Source: Hyphomicrobiales bacterium (GTDB taxonomy: Bacteria; Pseudomonadota; Alphaproteobacteria; Rhizobiales; Rhizobiaceae). Taken from it: a DNA stretch of 64,000 bases. Every line of letters begins with the position of its first letter. The first letter of the stretch is position 1. The DNA lies in the NCBI GenBank assembly GCA_002400845.2, contig NVRK02000007.1, positions 1 through 64,000 of the forward strand. Direction: 5' to 3'. Both the position numbers and the translations under genes were made by a program. A model generated the notes under the pieces. That model had not been told where the DNA came from and did no database searches. It was given only the letters and a program-made list of their open reading frames with translations. Shown here one piece after another: positions 1-13,923 of this stretch.

Positions 1-418
1 GGTTATGATCCTCCGCATCATTATGGATGGCCATATCCACCACACACCCTAAAGCCACAAACGGTTTGATAAAGTCTTTTAAAAGCTGAAGACGCTCCTT
101 AACGGGAATATCCCGCGTCAACGCCACCTCTATTTTTTTAGCAAGTCTTTGGTCTTTTCGCTTTGAATGGGCTTCTACTTTGTTCCAAAGTTGAGCGCGA
201 TCATGCGTCCATTCAGGCGCACCTTTTGGCGCAGCGATTTCTTTAAAAACAACCTCATCATCTCCCCCTTCTCTTGCGGTTATATTCTTGTTCTTTTGAG
301 TACTGAAGATCGTTTCACCAGATTGATAAGACGCGGCAGACACAGCACTCCTCTGCGTCGGGTCTTCATTTTTAGAAGACACATTCCCAATATGACAATG
401 GATATTACCGTCCTGCAA
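1..418 (-). CDS. MobA/MobL-family (MOBQ) relaxase, N-terminal part, partial
   Basis: This reading frame is not in the ORF track because it runs off the left edge. Reading the minus strand gives IHCHIGNVSS, then RSAVSAASYQSGE, then LWNKVEAHSKRKDQRLAKKIEVALTRD and VDMAIHNDA. This is the family pattern of MobA/MobL relaxases: an initial HxH-type strand, the RSAVAAAAYRxGE box, the LWNxVExxEKRKDxxLAR box and the metal-binding AIH region. The family nicks oriT and leads the strand through a coupling protein. I chose the TTG at 418, preceded by GGTGGAG four bases upstream, because family members start a few residues before IHCH. An in-frame ATG at 520 would add 34 residues unlike the family. The frame has no stops to the window edge. 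It is divergent from the coupling-protein gene, with the oriT-like site between them. Confidence 0.8.
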   Translation of the reverse strand, partial: MQDGNIHCHIGNVSSKNEDPTQRSAVSAASYQSGETIFSTQKNKNITAREGGDDEVVFKEIAAPKGAPEWTHDRAQLWNKVEAHSKRKDQRLAKKIEVALTRDIPVKERLQLLKDFIKPFVALGCVVDMAIHNDAEDHN

Positions 419-619
419 TTTTCTCCACCATCTCAATATCCATGTATGGCTTGTGCGGATATCCGCCAAGCAAGGGTTCCCAAAAACCGCCCAAAAACCG
501 AGCACATCCCCACAATGCATCAAGCAATATATCGCCCCCAAGGTCTCCTCGGGGTTGTAGGGGACGCCCTACAGCACTCCGCGTTCTTAACGTGCGGGAC
601 GCCGTTAAAACGCGGTTAT

Positions 620-686
620 AGGTTGAACAACTTGGCCGCTTTTTACGAACCTGTAATACAAGTTGGGCAACCTGTAAGTGCGCTCT
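620..686 (+). other. Candidate origin of transfer (oriT) with MOBQ-type nic core
   Basis: Two arms form an imperfect inverted repeat. AGGTTGAACAACTTG (620-634) matches the reverse complement of CAAGTTGGGCAACCT (659-673) at 13 of 15 positions. One base after the second arm comes TAAGTGCGCTCT (675-686), which differs at one position from the TAAGTGCGCCCT nic core I recall for RSF1010 and related MOBQ origins. An inverted repeat directly 5' of the nic core is the standard MOBQ oriT arrangement. The site lies between a MOBQ relaxase gene and a divergent coupling-protein gene, which is where an oriT is expected. Nicking has not been shown; the call rests on motif, repeat and context. Confidence 0.72.
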
Positions 687-764: not shown

Positions 765-2402
765 ATGAGTAACGACCTGTTTGATTTTAAAAATGCCATG
801 GGCTTGAGCGCCGATGATATAACCCGCTCCGCCAAGACGGGCATGCAGATCGCCAGACTGGGCTCAGGCTGGGCTTTAAAGCGACAACTCACCAAAGAAG
901 GCTACGATCCCATAACCATAGACGCTGCGGTTGCAGCTGTGAAGGAGGGGCGTGATCCAGCATCTATTATAGAGCAAGCCCATCAAGCTTACGCGCTGCG
1001 CGATAAACAAGATCAAATACGGAAGAACCCACCCCCCATTCACGGCTCCGCAAGGTGGAGCAATAAACAAGATTTAAGGAAAGAAAATTTTCTAACGCCC
1101 CATGGCGGCAAAGGTCTGTCACTGGGGCTTTACGGGCATGATCCTCTCTACTGGAACGGTGAGAGCCATTTACTCACTATTGCCCCAACGCGCACGGGTA
1201 AATCTATTATGCAAATTGTGCCCAACCTTTTGCAATATAAAGGCTCTGCTGTGGTGCTTGATCCCAAAGGAGAACTGTTTGGATTAACGGCCAAATGGCG
1301 AGAAGAAAATGTTGGACCTGTTTATGTGCTTAATCCCTTTGGGCTAGAACCACTGGGCAGCTTTACAGATAGCTTTAATCCCCTTGATAACGTCACAGAC
1401 AGCCTGAGCGCAACGAAACTGGCTGAGGTGATTTACCCCCGTGGCAACAACCCTCAACAACAATTTTTTGATAATGAAGCCATCGGTTTTTTATCCGCCG
1501 TTATTGAATATGTGGCCTGTCATCGCCCCCAAAAAGATCGTACTCTGTCTTTTATCCGCACGCATTTAGCCTCTCTCAATACGCGGTTTTACACACTGCT
1601 TAAGGAGATGGGCCAAGAGCATTTGAGTAACGCCATTAAAAATGCAGCCAGTAACTTTTGGACCAAATCGCAAGAAACAGGCAAGCCACGGGTGATGGAT
1701 AGCATCAATCAACATTTACGCATTTGGGATAACGAAGGCCTCCATAAAGCAACGGCGCATTCTGTCTTTAATTTTAAAGACCTGAAGGACAAACCCGCCA
1801 CCGTTTATTTGATGCTCCCTTTTGAAGAGATTGAAGCTTATTCAACCTTTGTGCGGATGATCTTTGCAACTGCTTTAAATGCCATGTTGGAAAACAAAAC
1901 CATTCCTGAAATTCCTGTTCTTTTTGTGCTCGATGAATTTTTAGCTCTAGACAGTGATGAGAGATTTGTATCGGCGCTGCGCACCCACGCAAGCGCAGGC
2001 GTGAGACTTTGGTTTTTCCTGCAAGACTTACCCACCCTAGAACAAAAATATCCCACGACTTGGAAGTCCTTTCTTCAAACAGAAATCAAAACCTTTTTTG
2101 GCACAGACGATCCCTACACCGCCAAACTGATCAGTGAATATCTGGGCGATAAAACGGTTGCCTATGATATTCCCAATATGTCTGCCAGTACATCTGGCGG
2201 TTCATCTGGCAGCACCTCTTATAGTATTTCAGAAAACCTTCATCTCACGGGCCGCAATCTGATGACGCCCAATGAAGTGATCGCCTTTATGGCGGGCAAC
2301 GCGCAAGGGCGTGGCGGCATTCATTTCATGCGCAACATTCCCCCCGTTCAAATCTATTTCACACCATGGTTTAAGGATCCGGCATTGGTCGCGCGGATAT
2401 GA
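765..2402 (+). CDS. VirD4/TraG-type type IV coupling protein
   Basis: This ATPase couples a relaxase-DNA complex to a type IV secretion channel. About 545 residues are read from the ATG at 765, which has GGGGA six bases upstream; the track start at 726 has no such site. Walker A is APTRTGKS (about residues 140-147), followed by the family block AVVLDPKGELF. Walker B is VLFVLDEFLAL (about 385-395). The motifs NPQQQFFDNEA and SFLQTEIKTFFGTDD also fit VirD4/TraG proteins. No clear N-terminal membrane helix is visible. Instead there is a soluble leader of about 110 residues, unlike TraG or VirD4, which have two N-terminal helices. It overlaps the next gene by four bases (ATGA). Together with the relaxase and oriT it suggests a mobilization module. 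Confidence 0.9.
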   Translation: MSNDLFDFKNAMGLSADDITRSAKTGMQIARLGSGWALKRQLTKEGYDPITIDAAVAAVKEGRDPASIIEQAHQAYALRDKQDQIRKNPPPIHGSARWSNKQDLRKENFLTPHGGKGLSLGLYGHDPLYWNGESHLLTIAPTRTGKSIMQIVPNLLQYKGSAVVLDPKGELFGLTAKWREENVGPVYVLNPFGLEPLGSFTDSFNPLDNVTDSLSATKLAEVIYPRGNNPQQQFFDNEAIGFLSAVIEYVACHRPQKDRTLSFIRTHLASLNTRFYTLLKEMGQEHLSNAIKNAASNFWTKSQETGKPRVMDSINQHLRIWDNEGLHKATAHSVFNFKDLKDKPATVYLMLPFEEIEAYSTFVRMIFATALNAMLENKTIPEIPVLFVLDEFLALDSDERFVSALRTHASAGVRLWFFLQDLPTLEQKYPTTWKSFLQTEIKTFFGTDDPYTAKLISEYLGDKTVAYDIPNMSASTSGGSSGSTSYSISENLHLTGRNLMTPNEVIAFMAGNAQGRGGIHFMRNIPPVQIYFTPWFKDPALVARI

Positions 2403-3397
2403 GCAAAGCGCTGAAAGTTCAAAAAAACTCTATGGTGAGAACACTCATCGTTATGGCGCTCAGCGCTGCCATTGGCGGCGTGATTGCTGTGCTCCTTGTT
2501 TTGCCTGCTGCCATCACAGCTGTTGTGCTCATGGGGCCTATCGCATGGCTCACACTTGGCCCCATGTTACTCGCCGCCGCTTCTCTTTCTATCACTTACG
2601 CCATCATAGTTGTTCCCATTTGGGCCATCGTCGGCGGGTATTTATTTGCTCATTTTATGTCAGGGAACGGCAGTGCAGCCGTTAAAAATGGGGTGACATT
2701 TTTCTCAAAGTCACATCCTATTAGCATCCGAACACAAGAGCTCGCCGCCAAACTCAACTTGCCGCCCATTCCCTTTGTTGGATATTACAAAGCAGATGAC
2801 ATCAACGCCTTTGCCATGGGCACAGAACAAAATAATACAATGATTGCCTTCAGCGCAGGCGCCATTGAAAACCTCACCAAAAAAGAACTCGATGCGATCA
2901 TCGCCCACGAACTCGCGCACGTTGCCAATAACGATATGGCACGGATGACTTTTCTGCGCGGCGCACAAGAAGCGCTGACATTTTTTCTCGTTTTTAAATC
3001 TCTCAAAAAATTCACGCGCTGGATTTTTACACCTTTGGCAGAAATTGAAATCATGTCCTTTTCGAGAAAACGTGAATTTGCCGCCGACGCCATCAGCGCT
3101 CAAATAACATCTCCAAACGACATGATTGCAGCCTTAACCGCCATCAAAACAACGCAATCCATCCAAAAAAAGACAGATATCTACCAAAACTGCCGCCTCT
3201 CAGGTTGGAACACCAAAGGCCTCTTCCGCAGCCATCCGCCTCTAGAGAGGCGTATCCAAAAGCTAGCTGCATTAGAAACAGCCGCTAGTTCAGCAACCAT
3301 TAAGGAAGTGCAAAAAAATCAAGAACCCACATTAGCCCCAGTCACCATAACCACAGAAGAAAGCCCCATTAACGGTGCTATGTCGTTTGGGGTTTAA
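2399..3397 (+). CDS. HtpX-like M48 family membrane metalloprotease
   Basis: This is a 332-residue zinc metallopeptidase. Several hydrophobic segments fill about residues 15-90. The zinc site is AHELAH (about 168-173), and the third-ligand glutamate lies in KREFAADA (about 223-230), the HtpX arrangement. The C-terminus carries the SHPPLERRIQKL motif usual in HtpX and Ste24-type proteins. HtpX proteins degrade damaged membrane proteins on the cytosolic face. The start codon lies inside the coupling-protein stop (ATGA), so translation is probably coupled and the protease belongs to the mobile element rather than being the housekeeping htpX. A role in conjugation, such as processing or turnover of membrane transfer proteins, is inference only. 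Confidence 0.88.
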   Translation: MSKALKVQKNSMVRTLIVMALSAAIGGVIAVLLVLPAAITAVVLMGPIAWLTLGPMLLAAASLSITYAIIVVPIWAIVGGYLFAHFMSGNGSAAVKNGVTFFSKSHPISIRTQELAAKLNLPPIPFVGYYKADDINAFAMGTEQNNTMIAFSAGAIENLTKKELDAIIAHELAHVANNDMARMTFLRGAQEALTFFLVFKSLKKFTRWIFTPLAEIEIMSFSRKREFAADAISAQITSPNDMIAALTAIKTTQSIQKKTDIYQNCRLSGWNTKGLFRSHPPLERRIQKLAALETAASSATIKEVQKNQEPTLAPVTITTEESPINGAMSFGV

Positions 3398-4461: not shown

Positions 4462-5586
4462 TTAAACCTTCCGAACATTAATCGCCCCAGCATCCAAAGT
4501 ATTTTTCAGATGCACGGCATAATGCTTTTCAATCATGAAAATAGATGTGCGACAGTTCTTTGAAATTTGATAAATATCCGCACCTTCTAACAGCCTTAGG
4601 CATATATAAGTATGCCTGAGGCTATAGGATGAGCGCCGATTGCCTTCTCGATCTGTTTTAAGGTTTGTATCGGCCAATACACGATTAAATTGCTTCTTAT
4701 GATCTTGCGGAAAGACGAGATCAGTCCCTTTAGGCTTGTTACGTGCTTTCAAACGTTCAAAAGGAAACACAGCACCAGTGGTGCTTTTACAGTACCCAAC
4801 ACCGCGCTTACCGCGCACTTCAATCACCAGTATTTCCTCGTCATTTTCTTCTTCGATAGAAACATCGCGATATTCTAACCGATTGACTTCATCAGGCCGC
4901 AGGCCTGTATTGGCCATAAACAATACGTAATCATGAAGTTGCTCTGCCGCATGTTGCCAGTTTAAGCCTTGCGCTTCCTCAACACGTTCACGGGTTCTGG
5001 TATAAAGTGCTTTATACTCTTCTGGCGAGAACCAAGCTCTGTGCGAAACCTTGCCTGAAGTTTTATACGGAGCGGAAAAATCAGGCAGGTGGCTTATCCA
5101 TCCATGACGTAGAGCTGTTTTCATCACTTGGCGCAATGTAACTGTTTCATGGTGCAGGGTGCTTCTCGCTGGCGCACGACCTTCTTCAGGCAACATGCGC
5201 ATGGTGCGATATTCCTGAACCATACCCGCCGTGAGCTTACTTAATCCAATCTCACCAAAGTAAGGAATCAGATGATTGGTCAAACGCGCGCCGTGGTCCT
5301 TTACATAGCGTGGGTGACGCTCCCCATTCGTAATGGCCCCATATTCGATGAGAAACTGTTCTGCTGCGTCTGAAAAGGTCTTTTCAGATATGAGTTCACC
5401 AGCACGGTCTTTGACCCGAAGATCAAAATACCAGTCTTCTGCAAATTCCTTTGCATGAGATAAGCTTTCTGTTTTGCTACTGGTGCGCCATTCTTTGCCA
5501 TCCAAACGGGTAGAACATTGCCAAATAGAACTTCGCTCACGTTTGTAAACACGAACCTTATCACCAAGCACATAATGCGTTGCCAT
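4462..5586 (-). CDS. Tyrosine recombinase / integrase of the tRNA-Lys element
   Basis: This phage-type site-specific integrase has about 374 residues from the ATG at 5586, with GGAGGG four bases upstream; the track start is a TTG four codons earlier. An N-terminal arm/core-binding region (FSDAAEQFLIEYG, then a SAM-like domain) precedes the catalytic domain. Catalytic positions visible are Arg in TGLRPDEVNRL (about 230), Arg-His in YSLRHTY (about 324-325) and the nucleophile Tyr in MIEKHYAVH (about 356). The first His of the usual HxLRHT box is Ser here and the LGH histidine is Cys (NCRTS). Related integrases have the variant NMGTSVxMIEKHY, so this looks like a family trait rather than damage. 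Its 5' end faces the tRNA-Lys gene, the presumed attachment site. Confidence 0.93.
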   Translation of the reverse strand: MATHYVLGDKVRVYKRERSSIWQCSTRLDGKEWRTSSKTESLSHAKEFAEDWYFDLRVKDRAGELISEKTFSDAAEQFLIEYGAITNGERHPRYVKDHGARLTNHLIPYFGEIGLSKLTAGMVQEYRTMRMLPEEGRAPARSTLHHETVTLRQVMKTALRHGWISHLPDFSAPYKTSGKVSHRAWFSPEEYKALYTRTRERVEEAQGLNWQHAAEQLHDYVLFMANTGLRPDEVNRLEYRDVSIEEENDEEILVIEVRGKRGVGYCKSTTGAVFPFERLKARNKPKGTDLVFPQDHKKQFNRVLADTNLKTDREGNRRSSYSLRHTYICLRLLEGADIYQISKNCRTSIFMIEKHYAVHLKNTLDAGAINVRKV

Positions 5587-5671
5587 GAGACCCTCCAAAG
5601 TGTGTGTGGAGTGTGTGCGACCATTTTGGCGATTTTAAGGCAGTGATTTATAGCTAAGTCATTGAAATGTA

Positions 5672-5747
5672 TGGTGAGCGCTCAGGGATTCGAACCCTGG
5701 ACCTACTGATTAAAAGTCAGTTGCTCTACCGACTGAGCTAAGCGCTC
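5672..5747 (-). tRNA. tRNA-Lys (anticodon TTT), CCA encoded
   Basis: The minus strand folds as a standard tRNA: acceptor GAGCGCT with AGCGCTC, D arm GCTCAGTCGGTAGAGC, anticodon arm ACTGACTTTTAATCAGT with anticodon TTT, T arm CAGGGTTCGAATCCCTG, then ACCA. Its 3' end points towards the integrase, which makes it the likely attB of the element on the left. The tRNA is intact, so the element restored the 3' end on integration. Confidence 0.97.
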
Positions 5748-11814: not shown

Positions 11815-13923
11815 CTAACCAGCTCGCAACAACCTAATTGCTTGGTCTTGCCCAAATAAATAAAGCAAAATTCTAAGCGCTTCGCCTTGTTCTCCTTCAA
11901 GGTTAGGATTTTGCGCAATAATAAGTTTTGCACCATCGCGGGCAATTTCCAAAATATCTTTATGAAATTCAGGATCAGCAAGACTAAAGCCGGGGGCTCC
12001 AGATTGCCGCGTTCCTAAAACTTCACCTTCACCGCGCAGTTCTAAATCTTTTTCAGCAATTACAAAACCATCATTGGTTTCGCGCATTGTATTTAATCTA
12101 GCTTTTGCGATTTCACCTAGTGGATGCTTGTAAAGTAAAATACAGTTAGATGCTTTATCTGAACGACCAACACGGCCCCGTAATTGGTGCATTTGCGCCA
12201 AACCAAAGCGCTCTGCATGTTCAATAACAATGATCGTCGCATCCGGTACATCTACACCAACTTCAATCACAGTTGTTGCGACTAAAACTCTTGTCTTTCC
12301 GGTCCTAAAAGCTTCCATAGCGCTGTCTTTTTCTTCAGCGCTCATGCGTCCATGTACTAAGCCTACACCATCACCCAATGCATGTTGCAATGCTTTAAAA
12401 CGTTGGTCAGCAGAAGTCGCATCAACCTCATCACTTTCTTCCACCAAAGGACAAACCCAATATACTTTTTGACCTTGTGAAACCGCTGCTTGAACGCGCC
12501 CAACCAATACATCTAATTTATCAAGCGATAATAATGTCGTGTTTATTTCTTGGCGGCCCGCTGGTTTGTCTGGCAATTGAGAGACATCCATATCACCATA
12601 CCAAGTCATCACCAATGTGCGCGGTATAGGCGTTGCTGTCATAACCAACACATCACTTCTTGGGCCTTTATCGCCAAGTGCTAAACGTTGATGCACACCA
12701 AATCTATGCTGTTCATCAATTACCGCTACTCCCAAATCCTTAAACGCCACAGCTCCCTGAAATAAAGCATGCGTACCAATAATAATTTGCGTTTCACCTG
12801 ATTGAATACGCTCCAATATTGCCTCACGAACCTTGCCTTTTTCACGCGCAGTTAAAATTTCAACCTTTATACCAACGGTTTCGCAAATTGGACCAATGGT
12901 TGCTAAATGTTGACGCGCCAAAATTTCGGTCGGTGCCATAATTGCAGCTTGTGAACCGCTTTCAATGCTAGAAGCCATAGCGCATAAAGCAACGATGGTT
13001 TTACCTGCACCCACATCACCTTGCAACAACCGCAACATGCGTTCTGGTTTTGCAATATCTGCATTAATTTCTTTAATTGCATTTTCTTGGCTTTGGGTGA
13101 GGGGCCACTTAAACTCACCAAGTATTCGACTTTGTAAATCACCCGAAAACTGCCTTGCAGTTCCACCCGATTTACGCATGCGATCGCGCATTAAAGCAAG
13201 CGCTAATTGCCCAGTTAAAAATTCATCATAGGCAAGTCTGCGCCTATGATTTGATCTCGGGTCTAAGTCGGTTAAATCGCGCGGTCTATGAATGCGTTTG
13301 ACAGCGTCTGAAAAATTGGGCCATTTCTCACGTTTTAATAGTTCGCTATCTATCCATTCTGGCAATACTGGTAATTGCTTAACCGCAGTACGAATTGATT
13401 TTTGTAATGTCTTTTGAGCAATACCACTCACCATTGGGTAAACAGGTTCAATAAGCGGCATCGTGGCAAACGCTTCATCATCCAAAATATGATCTGGATG
13501 CACCATACTTGCTTTACCGTTGAAGCGCTCAACACGGCCACTTACATAACGTTCACTACCAACTGGCATTTGCTTTTCTAAATAAGAGCCATGCGCTCTA
13601 AAAAAAACCAATTGCATATCACCACTACTGTCGTGAACATTTACACGGTAGGGTACACGTTTGTTGCCCCTAGGCGGCGCTTGGTGATTATCAATATGAA
13701 CTTTTATAGTAACGATTACGCCATCTTCAGCCTCTGCAATCTTTGGCTGTTTGGTGCGATCAATAATCGAATGCGGCACATGAAAAAGCATGTCAGCTAT
13801 ACGTGCTGTCTCGGCGCTCTCAGAACCACGAAAGAGTTTAGTCAGCGCCTTTTCAAGCTTAGGGCCAATGCCCTCTAGCTTTGAAACACTCGCAAATAGC
13901 GGATTTAAAATATCAGGCCTCAT
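11815..13923 (-). CDS. recG: ATP-dependent DNA helicase RecG
   Basis: RecG remodels stalled forks and branched recombination intermediates. The protein has 702 residues, the normal size. It has an N-terminal wedge/OB domain (VTIKVHIDNHQAPPRGNKRVPYRVNV), then SF2 helicase motifs: QGDVGAGKT (Walker A), APTEILARQH, DEQHRFGVHQR, TATPIPRT, then HGRMSAEEKD, ATTVIEVGVDVPDA and QLRGRVGRS. The C-terminal DLELRGEGEVLGTRQSG block is typical. It starts at an ATG at 13923 and is divergent from sdhE across about 140 bases. Confidence 0.98.
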   Translation of the reverse strand: MRPDILNPLFASVSKLEGIGPKLEKALTKLFRGSESAETARIADMLFHVPHSIIDRTKQPKIAEAEDGVIVTIKVHIDNHQAPPRGNKRVPYRVNVHDSSGDMQLVFFRAHGSYLEKQMPVGSERYVSGRVERFNGKASMVHPDHILDDEAFATMPLIEPVYPMVSGIAQKTLQKSIRTAVKQLPVLPEWIDSELLKREKWPNFSDAVKRIHRPRDLTDLDPRSNHRRRLAYDEFLTGQLALALMRDRMRKSGGTARQFSGDLQSRILGEFKWPLTQSQENAIKEINADIAKPERMLRLLQGDVGAGKTIVALCAMASSIESGSQAAIMAPTEILARQHLATIGPICETVGIKVEILTAREKGKVREAILERIQSGETQIIIGTHALFQGAVAFKDLGVAVIDEQHRFGVHQRLALGDKGPRSDVLVMTATPIPRTLVMTWYGDMDVSQLPDKPAGRQEINTTLLSLDKLDVLVGRVQAAVSQGQKVYWVCPLVEESDEVDATSADQRFKALQHALGDGVGLVHGRMSAEEKDSAMEAFRTGKTRVLVATTVIEVGVDVPDATIIVIEHAERFGLAQMHQLRGRVGRSDKASNCILLYKHPLGEIAKARLNTMRETNDGFVIAEKDLELRGEGEVLGTRQSGAPGFSLADPEFHKDILEIARDGAKLIIAQNPNLEGEQGEALRILLYLFGQDQAIRLLRAG

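Follow-up and report, generated by a model that had tools for sequence, protein, structure and literature searches.

The question raised by the left end of contig C98 is whether the short intergenic region found there contains an origin of transfer (oriT) and, if so, what kind of element it would mobilise. We analysed positions 1 to 64,000 of this 80 kb contig (hereafter the window), which belongs to a draft assembly of 2.9 Mb in 130 contigs. From the left, the order is relaxase, oriT region, type IV coupling protein (T4CP), M48 peptidase, a hypothetical gene, integrase and tRNA-Lys. Our reading is that positions 620–686 are, very probably, the oriT of an integrative mobilizable element (IME) inserted in tRNA-Lys.

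A predicted nick region between divergent genes

The intergenic region that carries the putative oriT is approximately 350 bp long and lies between a relaxase gene on the minus strand (PF03389) and a T4CP gene on the plus strand (PF02534, T4SS-DNA_transf), the divergent context that the original prediction had described. The parts of the site are:

620–634, plus strand: distal arm of the oriT inverted repeat, AGGTTGAACAACTTG
659–673, plus strand: nic-proximal arm of the oriT inverted repeat, CAAGTTGGGCAACCT
675–686, plus strand: nic core, TAAGTGCGCTCT, with the nick predicted between G682 and C683 by homology to RSF1010

The arms are 15 bp long, complementary at 13/15 positions and separated by a 24-nt loop, and the single base G674 separates the nic-proximal arm from the core; the coordinates previously claimed for the repeat, ending one base before the core, are exactly right. 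The nic site of RSF1010 is TAAGTGCG^CCCT (PMC4814116). The core in the window differs from it by one mismatch, again as claimed, and the comparison with RSF1010 places the predicted nick at 682^683.

Could this be a chance repeat next to a chance motif? The exact 12-mer TAAGTGCGCTCT occurs once in the 2.9-Mb draft genome, and copies with one mismatch are found in 18 further places, which is the point in favour of such a reading. However, none of the seven one-mismatch copies that we checked has an inverted repeat (best score 5, compared with 9 at the oriT), and the arrangement of repeat and core is conserved in relatives (see below), which already contradicts a chance origin. Of 4000 positions chosen at random in the window, 10 have an inverted repeat of equal or better score ending within 4 nt of them. 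We find a chance origin hardly credible. A search of the region against Rfam gave no match near the gathering score.

The relaxase

2–418, minus strand: N-terminal 139 residues of a MobQ-family relaxase, with the conserved Tyr (PF03389, NCBIfam MobQ, alignment)

The relaxase gene is truncated by the first base of contig C98, and alignment with relatives places its likely start at a TTG at 418. The fragment matches PF03389 with 103 bits, covering positions 1–113 of MobA_MobL, and its best NCBIfam match is MobQ with 105 bits, which for a fragment falls below the whole-protein cut-off of 200. A complete homologue in genome G004, with 50% identity over the stretch covered by the fragment, matches the solved MOBQ relaxases NES (4HT4) and MobA (2NS6), and together these matches bear out the MOBQ family to which the left-edge gene had been assigned. 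Lack of a catalytic Tyr had been named beforehand as evidence that would count against the oriT; the relaxase family's invariant Tyr is present in the window, where the assembly holds only the N-terminal fragment of the protein. The HUH motif (H..D..HNPHxH) is found in the relatives, and the corresponding part of the window gene is missing from the draft. The remainder of the gene was found neither elsewhere in the draft nor on contig C40, which points to an assembly gap as its probable location.

Comparison with the IncQ system RSF1010/R1162, likewise MOBQ, reveals both likenesses and differences. Its oriT also has an inverted repeat directly preceding TAAGTGCG^C, and its MobA belongs to the same Pfam family as the relaxase described here. 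In RSF1010 the nick is followed by CCCT, whereas the family described here has CT[CG]T; the arms in the window are longer, and the loop is 24 nt rather than 3. Unlike RSF1010, the element is integrated and encodes its own T4CP, and no MobB or MobC was seen. The oriT is of an already known kind (MOBQ, RSF1010 type); the new part is the module that surrounds it.

Conservation of the oriT among relatives

Relatives were gathered by T4CP searches of related genomes and genome contigs, and the resulting loci are mainly from Alphaproteobacteria. In 23 alphaproteobacterial sequences, the window included, a TA[AG]GTGCGCT core, preceded by an inverted repeat, is retained 5' of the relaxase gene. Within a set of 21 sequences (the window, genomes, and the plasmids NZ_CP086614 and NZ_CP058352) the core TAAGTGCGCT is invariant (21/21), as are positions −1 to +10 around it (GTAAGTGCGCT), the C at −7 and A at −5 in the nic-proximal arm, and the T at +12. 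Two further sequences, L063 and L064, have TAGGTGCGCT as their core.

Several distinct arm sequences occur among the relatives, and every one of them is self-complementary, reaching 15/15 in L011 as against 13/15 in the window. Because a MAFFT alignment of the whole oriT misplaces the distal arms, pairing was scored locus by locus against mononucleotide shuffles, and not as a column-wise count of covariation. Scored in this way, arm pairing exceeds that of the shuffles at p ≤ 0.015 in 19 of 21 loci, the remaining two giving 0.035 and 0.07.

In some loci the relaxase and T4CP genes are separated, and there the oriT remains 5' of the relaxase. Our conclusion from this set of sequence comparisons is that the oriT tracks the relaxase and not the T4CP, which is the pattern expected for the relaxase's own nick site. 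A core that is kept and arms that still pair support the original oriT reading, and the concern that homologous elements might carry a different oriT elsewhere is answered by relatives that show the same core in the same place, with arms that are altered yet pairing.

A second, opposite-facing site

551–615, minus strand: second inverted-repeat site (repeat 603–615/579–592; GTGC-type core 567–578; short hairpin 556–562/567–573)

Approximately 75–100 bp from the oriT, nearer the relaxase and on the other strand, lies a second site. In the relatives it is made up of an inverted repeat, then a GTGCG-like core and a G/C hairpin. By pattern matching it was recognised in 17/21 loci, and a similar arrangement was seen by eye in the printed sequence of L012, L013, L048 and L051. 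There are two ways in which this site could alter our reading: it could be the working oriT, or the locus could have a dual oriT, so that 620–686 would be at most one of two origins. The recurrence of repeat and GTGCG-like core in relatives favours this, as does the core of one clade, AGAAAACCGGCAAGTGCGCC, which is close to the RSF1010 sequence GAGAAACCGGTAAGTGCGCCC. Yet the alignment reveals that the second core drifts (AAGTGCG, ACGTGCG, AACTGCG, CGGTGCG, and AGTGCTG in the window), whereas the core at 675–686 hardly varies. A nick site within the second core is therefore unlikely, and we regard a working or dual origin there as quite improbable.

We thus retain 620–686 as the oriT, and the second site may instead bind the relaxase, have a regulatory role, act in priming or be a decayed oriT. 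An intrinsic terminator was also considered for it and set aside, since on reading the sequence no T run follows the site. Our search of titles and abstracts in the open-access literature found no paper describing opposed oriT pairs.

A coupling protein paired with an M48 peptidase

765–2402, plus strand: VirD4-like type IV coupling ATPase (T4CP) without a predicted transmembrane segment (PF02534, 206 bits; hydrophobicity; model)
2399–3397, plus strand: M48 (HtpX/Ste24-like) membrane peptidase (PF01435, 102 bits; motifs; hydrophobicity; fold search)

The window T4CP has the conserved ATPase domain (T4SS-DNA_transf) of VirD4-type T4CPs. Judged on a hydrophobicity scale, which is the basis of all our transmembrane calls, the N-terminal transmembrane domain is absent from this protein and from 24 other close relatives with complete N-termini. 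The start of the M48 gene overlaps the T4CP stop codon, and its product has HELAH and SRKREFAAD motifs and three hydrophobic segments. Models of the two proteins were built from alignments of 24 (T4CP) and 21 (M48) sequences; the first resembles Cag-beta and TrwB-deltaN70, that is TrwB without its anchor, and the second, by fold search, Ste24p/ZMPSTE24 and HtpX.

At a T4CP score of 430 bits or more there are 26 distinct loci, and every one of them has an M48 gene directly downstream of the T4CP (the window, L011–L014 and L048–L069; 27 rows, of which L014 and L059 are one locus). It is important to note that the window and L011–L014 seeded the profiles, so that 21 of the 26 loci are independent. 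HEXXH and the downstream Glu are invariant in the M48 partners, which have hydrophobic N-terminal helices in nearly all loci. Among T4CPs scoring below 430 bits, an M48 neighbour is found only in L078, L080 and L086. Of the 24 T4CPs that score lower, though above 230 bits, and were listed without M48, 21 have an N-terminal hydrophobic segment; L086 is counted in this list despite an M48 frame overlapping its T4CP. With both M48 and one N-terminal hydrophobic segment, L078, L080 and L086 weaken the case for a strict rule that M48 replaced a lost anchor. In L062/L130 (pRLN3) the M48 gene consists of two overlapping frames and is possibly decayed, and no relaxase was found inside the locus examined.

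Other mobilizable systems offer partial parallels. The plasmid CloDF13, like the element described here, encodes its own T4CP, MobB (PMC7431656); its relaxase is MOBC, and MobB, unlike the window T4CP, has and needs a membrane domain. T4CPs without a membrane domain are known, such as TraJ/TraI of pIP501, and some work with a small membrane protein (PMC7434980). The window T4CP shares the missing domain with the pIP501 type and differs in that its membrane neighbour is, by its motifs, an M48 peptidase with an intact active site.

Searching titles and abstracts of the open-access literature, we found no paper describing a link between M48 and T4CP. We tentatively suggest a family of mobilization modules in which a coupling ATPase that has lost its anchor and a membrane-bound, catalytically intact M48 form a two-protein unit, where M48 would anchor the ATPase and may act on the helper's channel, and to which the second, opposite-facing inverted-repeat site would also belong; we hold this as a possibility rather than the likely outcome. 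The constancy of the pairing between anchor-less ATPase and M48 suggests an undescribed way of docking DNA on a borrowed channel.

The integrated element

4462–5598, minus strand: tyrosine integrase (PF00589, E 8e-5, below the cut-off; 74% identity to its counterpart beside the corresponding tRNA in G004)
5672–5747, minus strand: tRNA-Lys(TTT), the insertion site, overlapping the att repeat
5670–5716: 47-bp att repeat, with an exact copy on contig C40 at ∼13844–13890

The integrase lies immediately 3' of tRNA-Lys(TTT), and the att repeat is the 3' part of the tRNA. At the C40 copy there is no tRNA gene, from which it would follow that C40 from position 1 to ∼13.8 kb is likely the other part of the island. 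Genome G004, which is complete, has these genes at this tRNA in an unchanged order; its att repeats lie 28.7 kb apart, so that this complete cousin measures about 28.7 kb, and the tRNA side of the insertion is syntenic with the window. The C40 side gave no synteny with G004 beyond attR in the 5.6 kb compared, so that the 47-bp repeat is the only link between C98 and C40.

VirB4 was not found in the draft genome, although the draft is 91.5% complete and this absence is therefore no proof; nor does it appear in the gene tables of the plasmid cousins NZ_CP086614.1 and NZ_CP058352.1. The elements are thus best read as mobilizable and not self-transmissible. On its sequence features, the host element is very probably an IME in tRNA-Lys(TTT) with its own integrase and att repeats, its halves lying on unjoined contigs.

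A stranded element might retain a decayed, non-functional oriT, and the two mismatches in the window arms, set against the perfect pairing in L011, would agree with this, as would the failure to find a helper system in the draft. However, the nic core is intact, the att repeat is exact, and the T4CP, M48 and integrase genes are open reading frames of normal length; we consider a remnant unlikely.

MOBQ IMEs and virD4-carrying mobilizable elements of Mesorhizobium, as far as the passages found describe them (PMC8627217), share with the island the order Hyphomicrobiales, tRNA sites, and a relaxase with a virD4-like gene in the absence of a T4SS. Those passages do not report an M48 partner, an anchor-less T4CP or the oriT core, all three of which the island has.

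The sequence, its conservation, the gene layout, the att repeat and the non-detection of VirB4 are our direct evidence. We infer that the element is excised, nicked and transferred with the aid of a helper, and likewise the part played by M48. The integrase would excise the element as a circle, and the MobQ-family relaxase would bind the inverted-repeat arm adjoining nic. Its Tyr would then cleave the plus strand between G682 and C683, remaining attached to the 5' end. The element's VirD4-like ATPase, which M48 probably holds at the membrane, would dock the relaxase–DNA complex to a mating channel supplied by a helper conjugative element. The transferred strand would leave T4CP side first, with the relaxase gene last. 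With the predicted oriT of an integrated mobilizable island located to the base and supported by comparison, nicking and mobilization are directly testable.

The insertion site seems to be a recurrent one, tRNA-Lys. In a genome of the same genus (L136; G006:C94, ∼40972) there is an att-like tRNA-Lys fragment without a tRNA gene.

The C40 segment (L138; C40:1–13838) carries type III restriction-modification, SNF2-type helicase, Fic, KAP/PifA-like and excisionase-like HTH genes, and its restriction and other defence-like genes raise a possible role in the spread of phage defence.

The two plasmid cousins (L128 and L129) have the relaxase, this oriT and the T4CP–M48 pair, yet are typed as non-mobilizable by MOB-suite (PLSDB), so that such elements can be missed.
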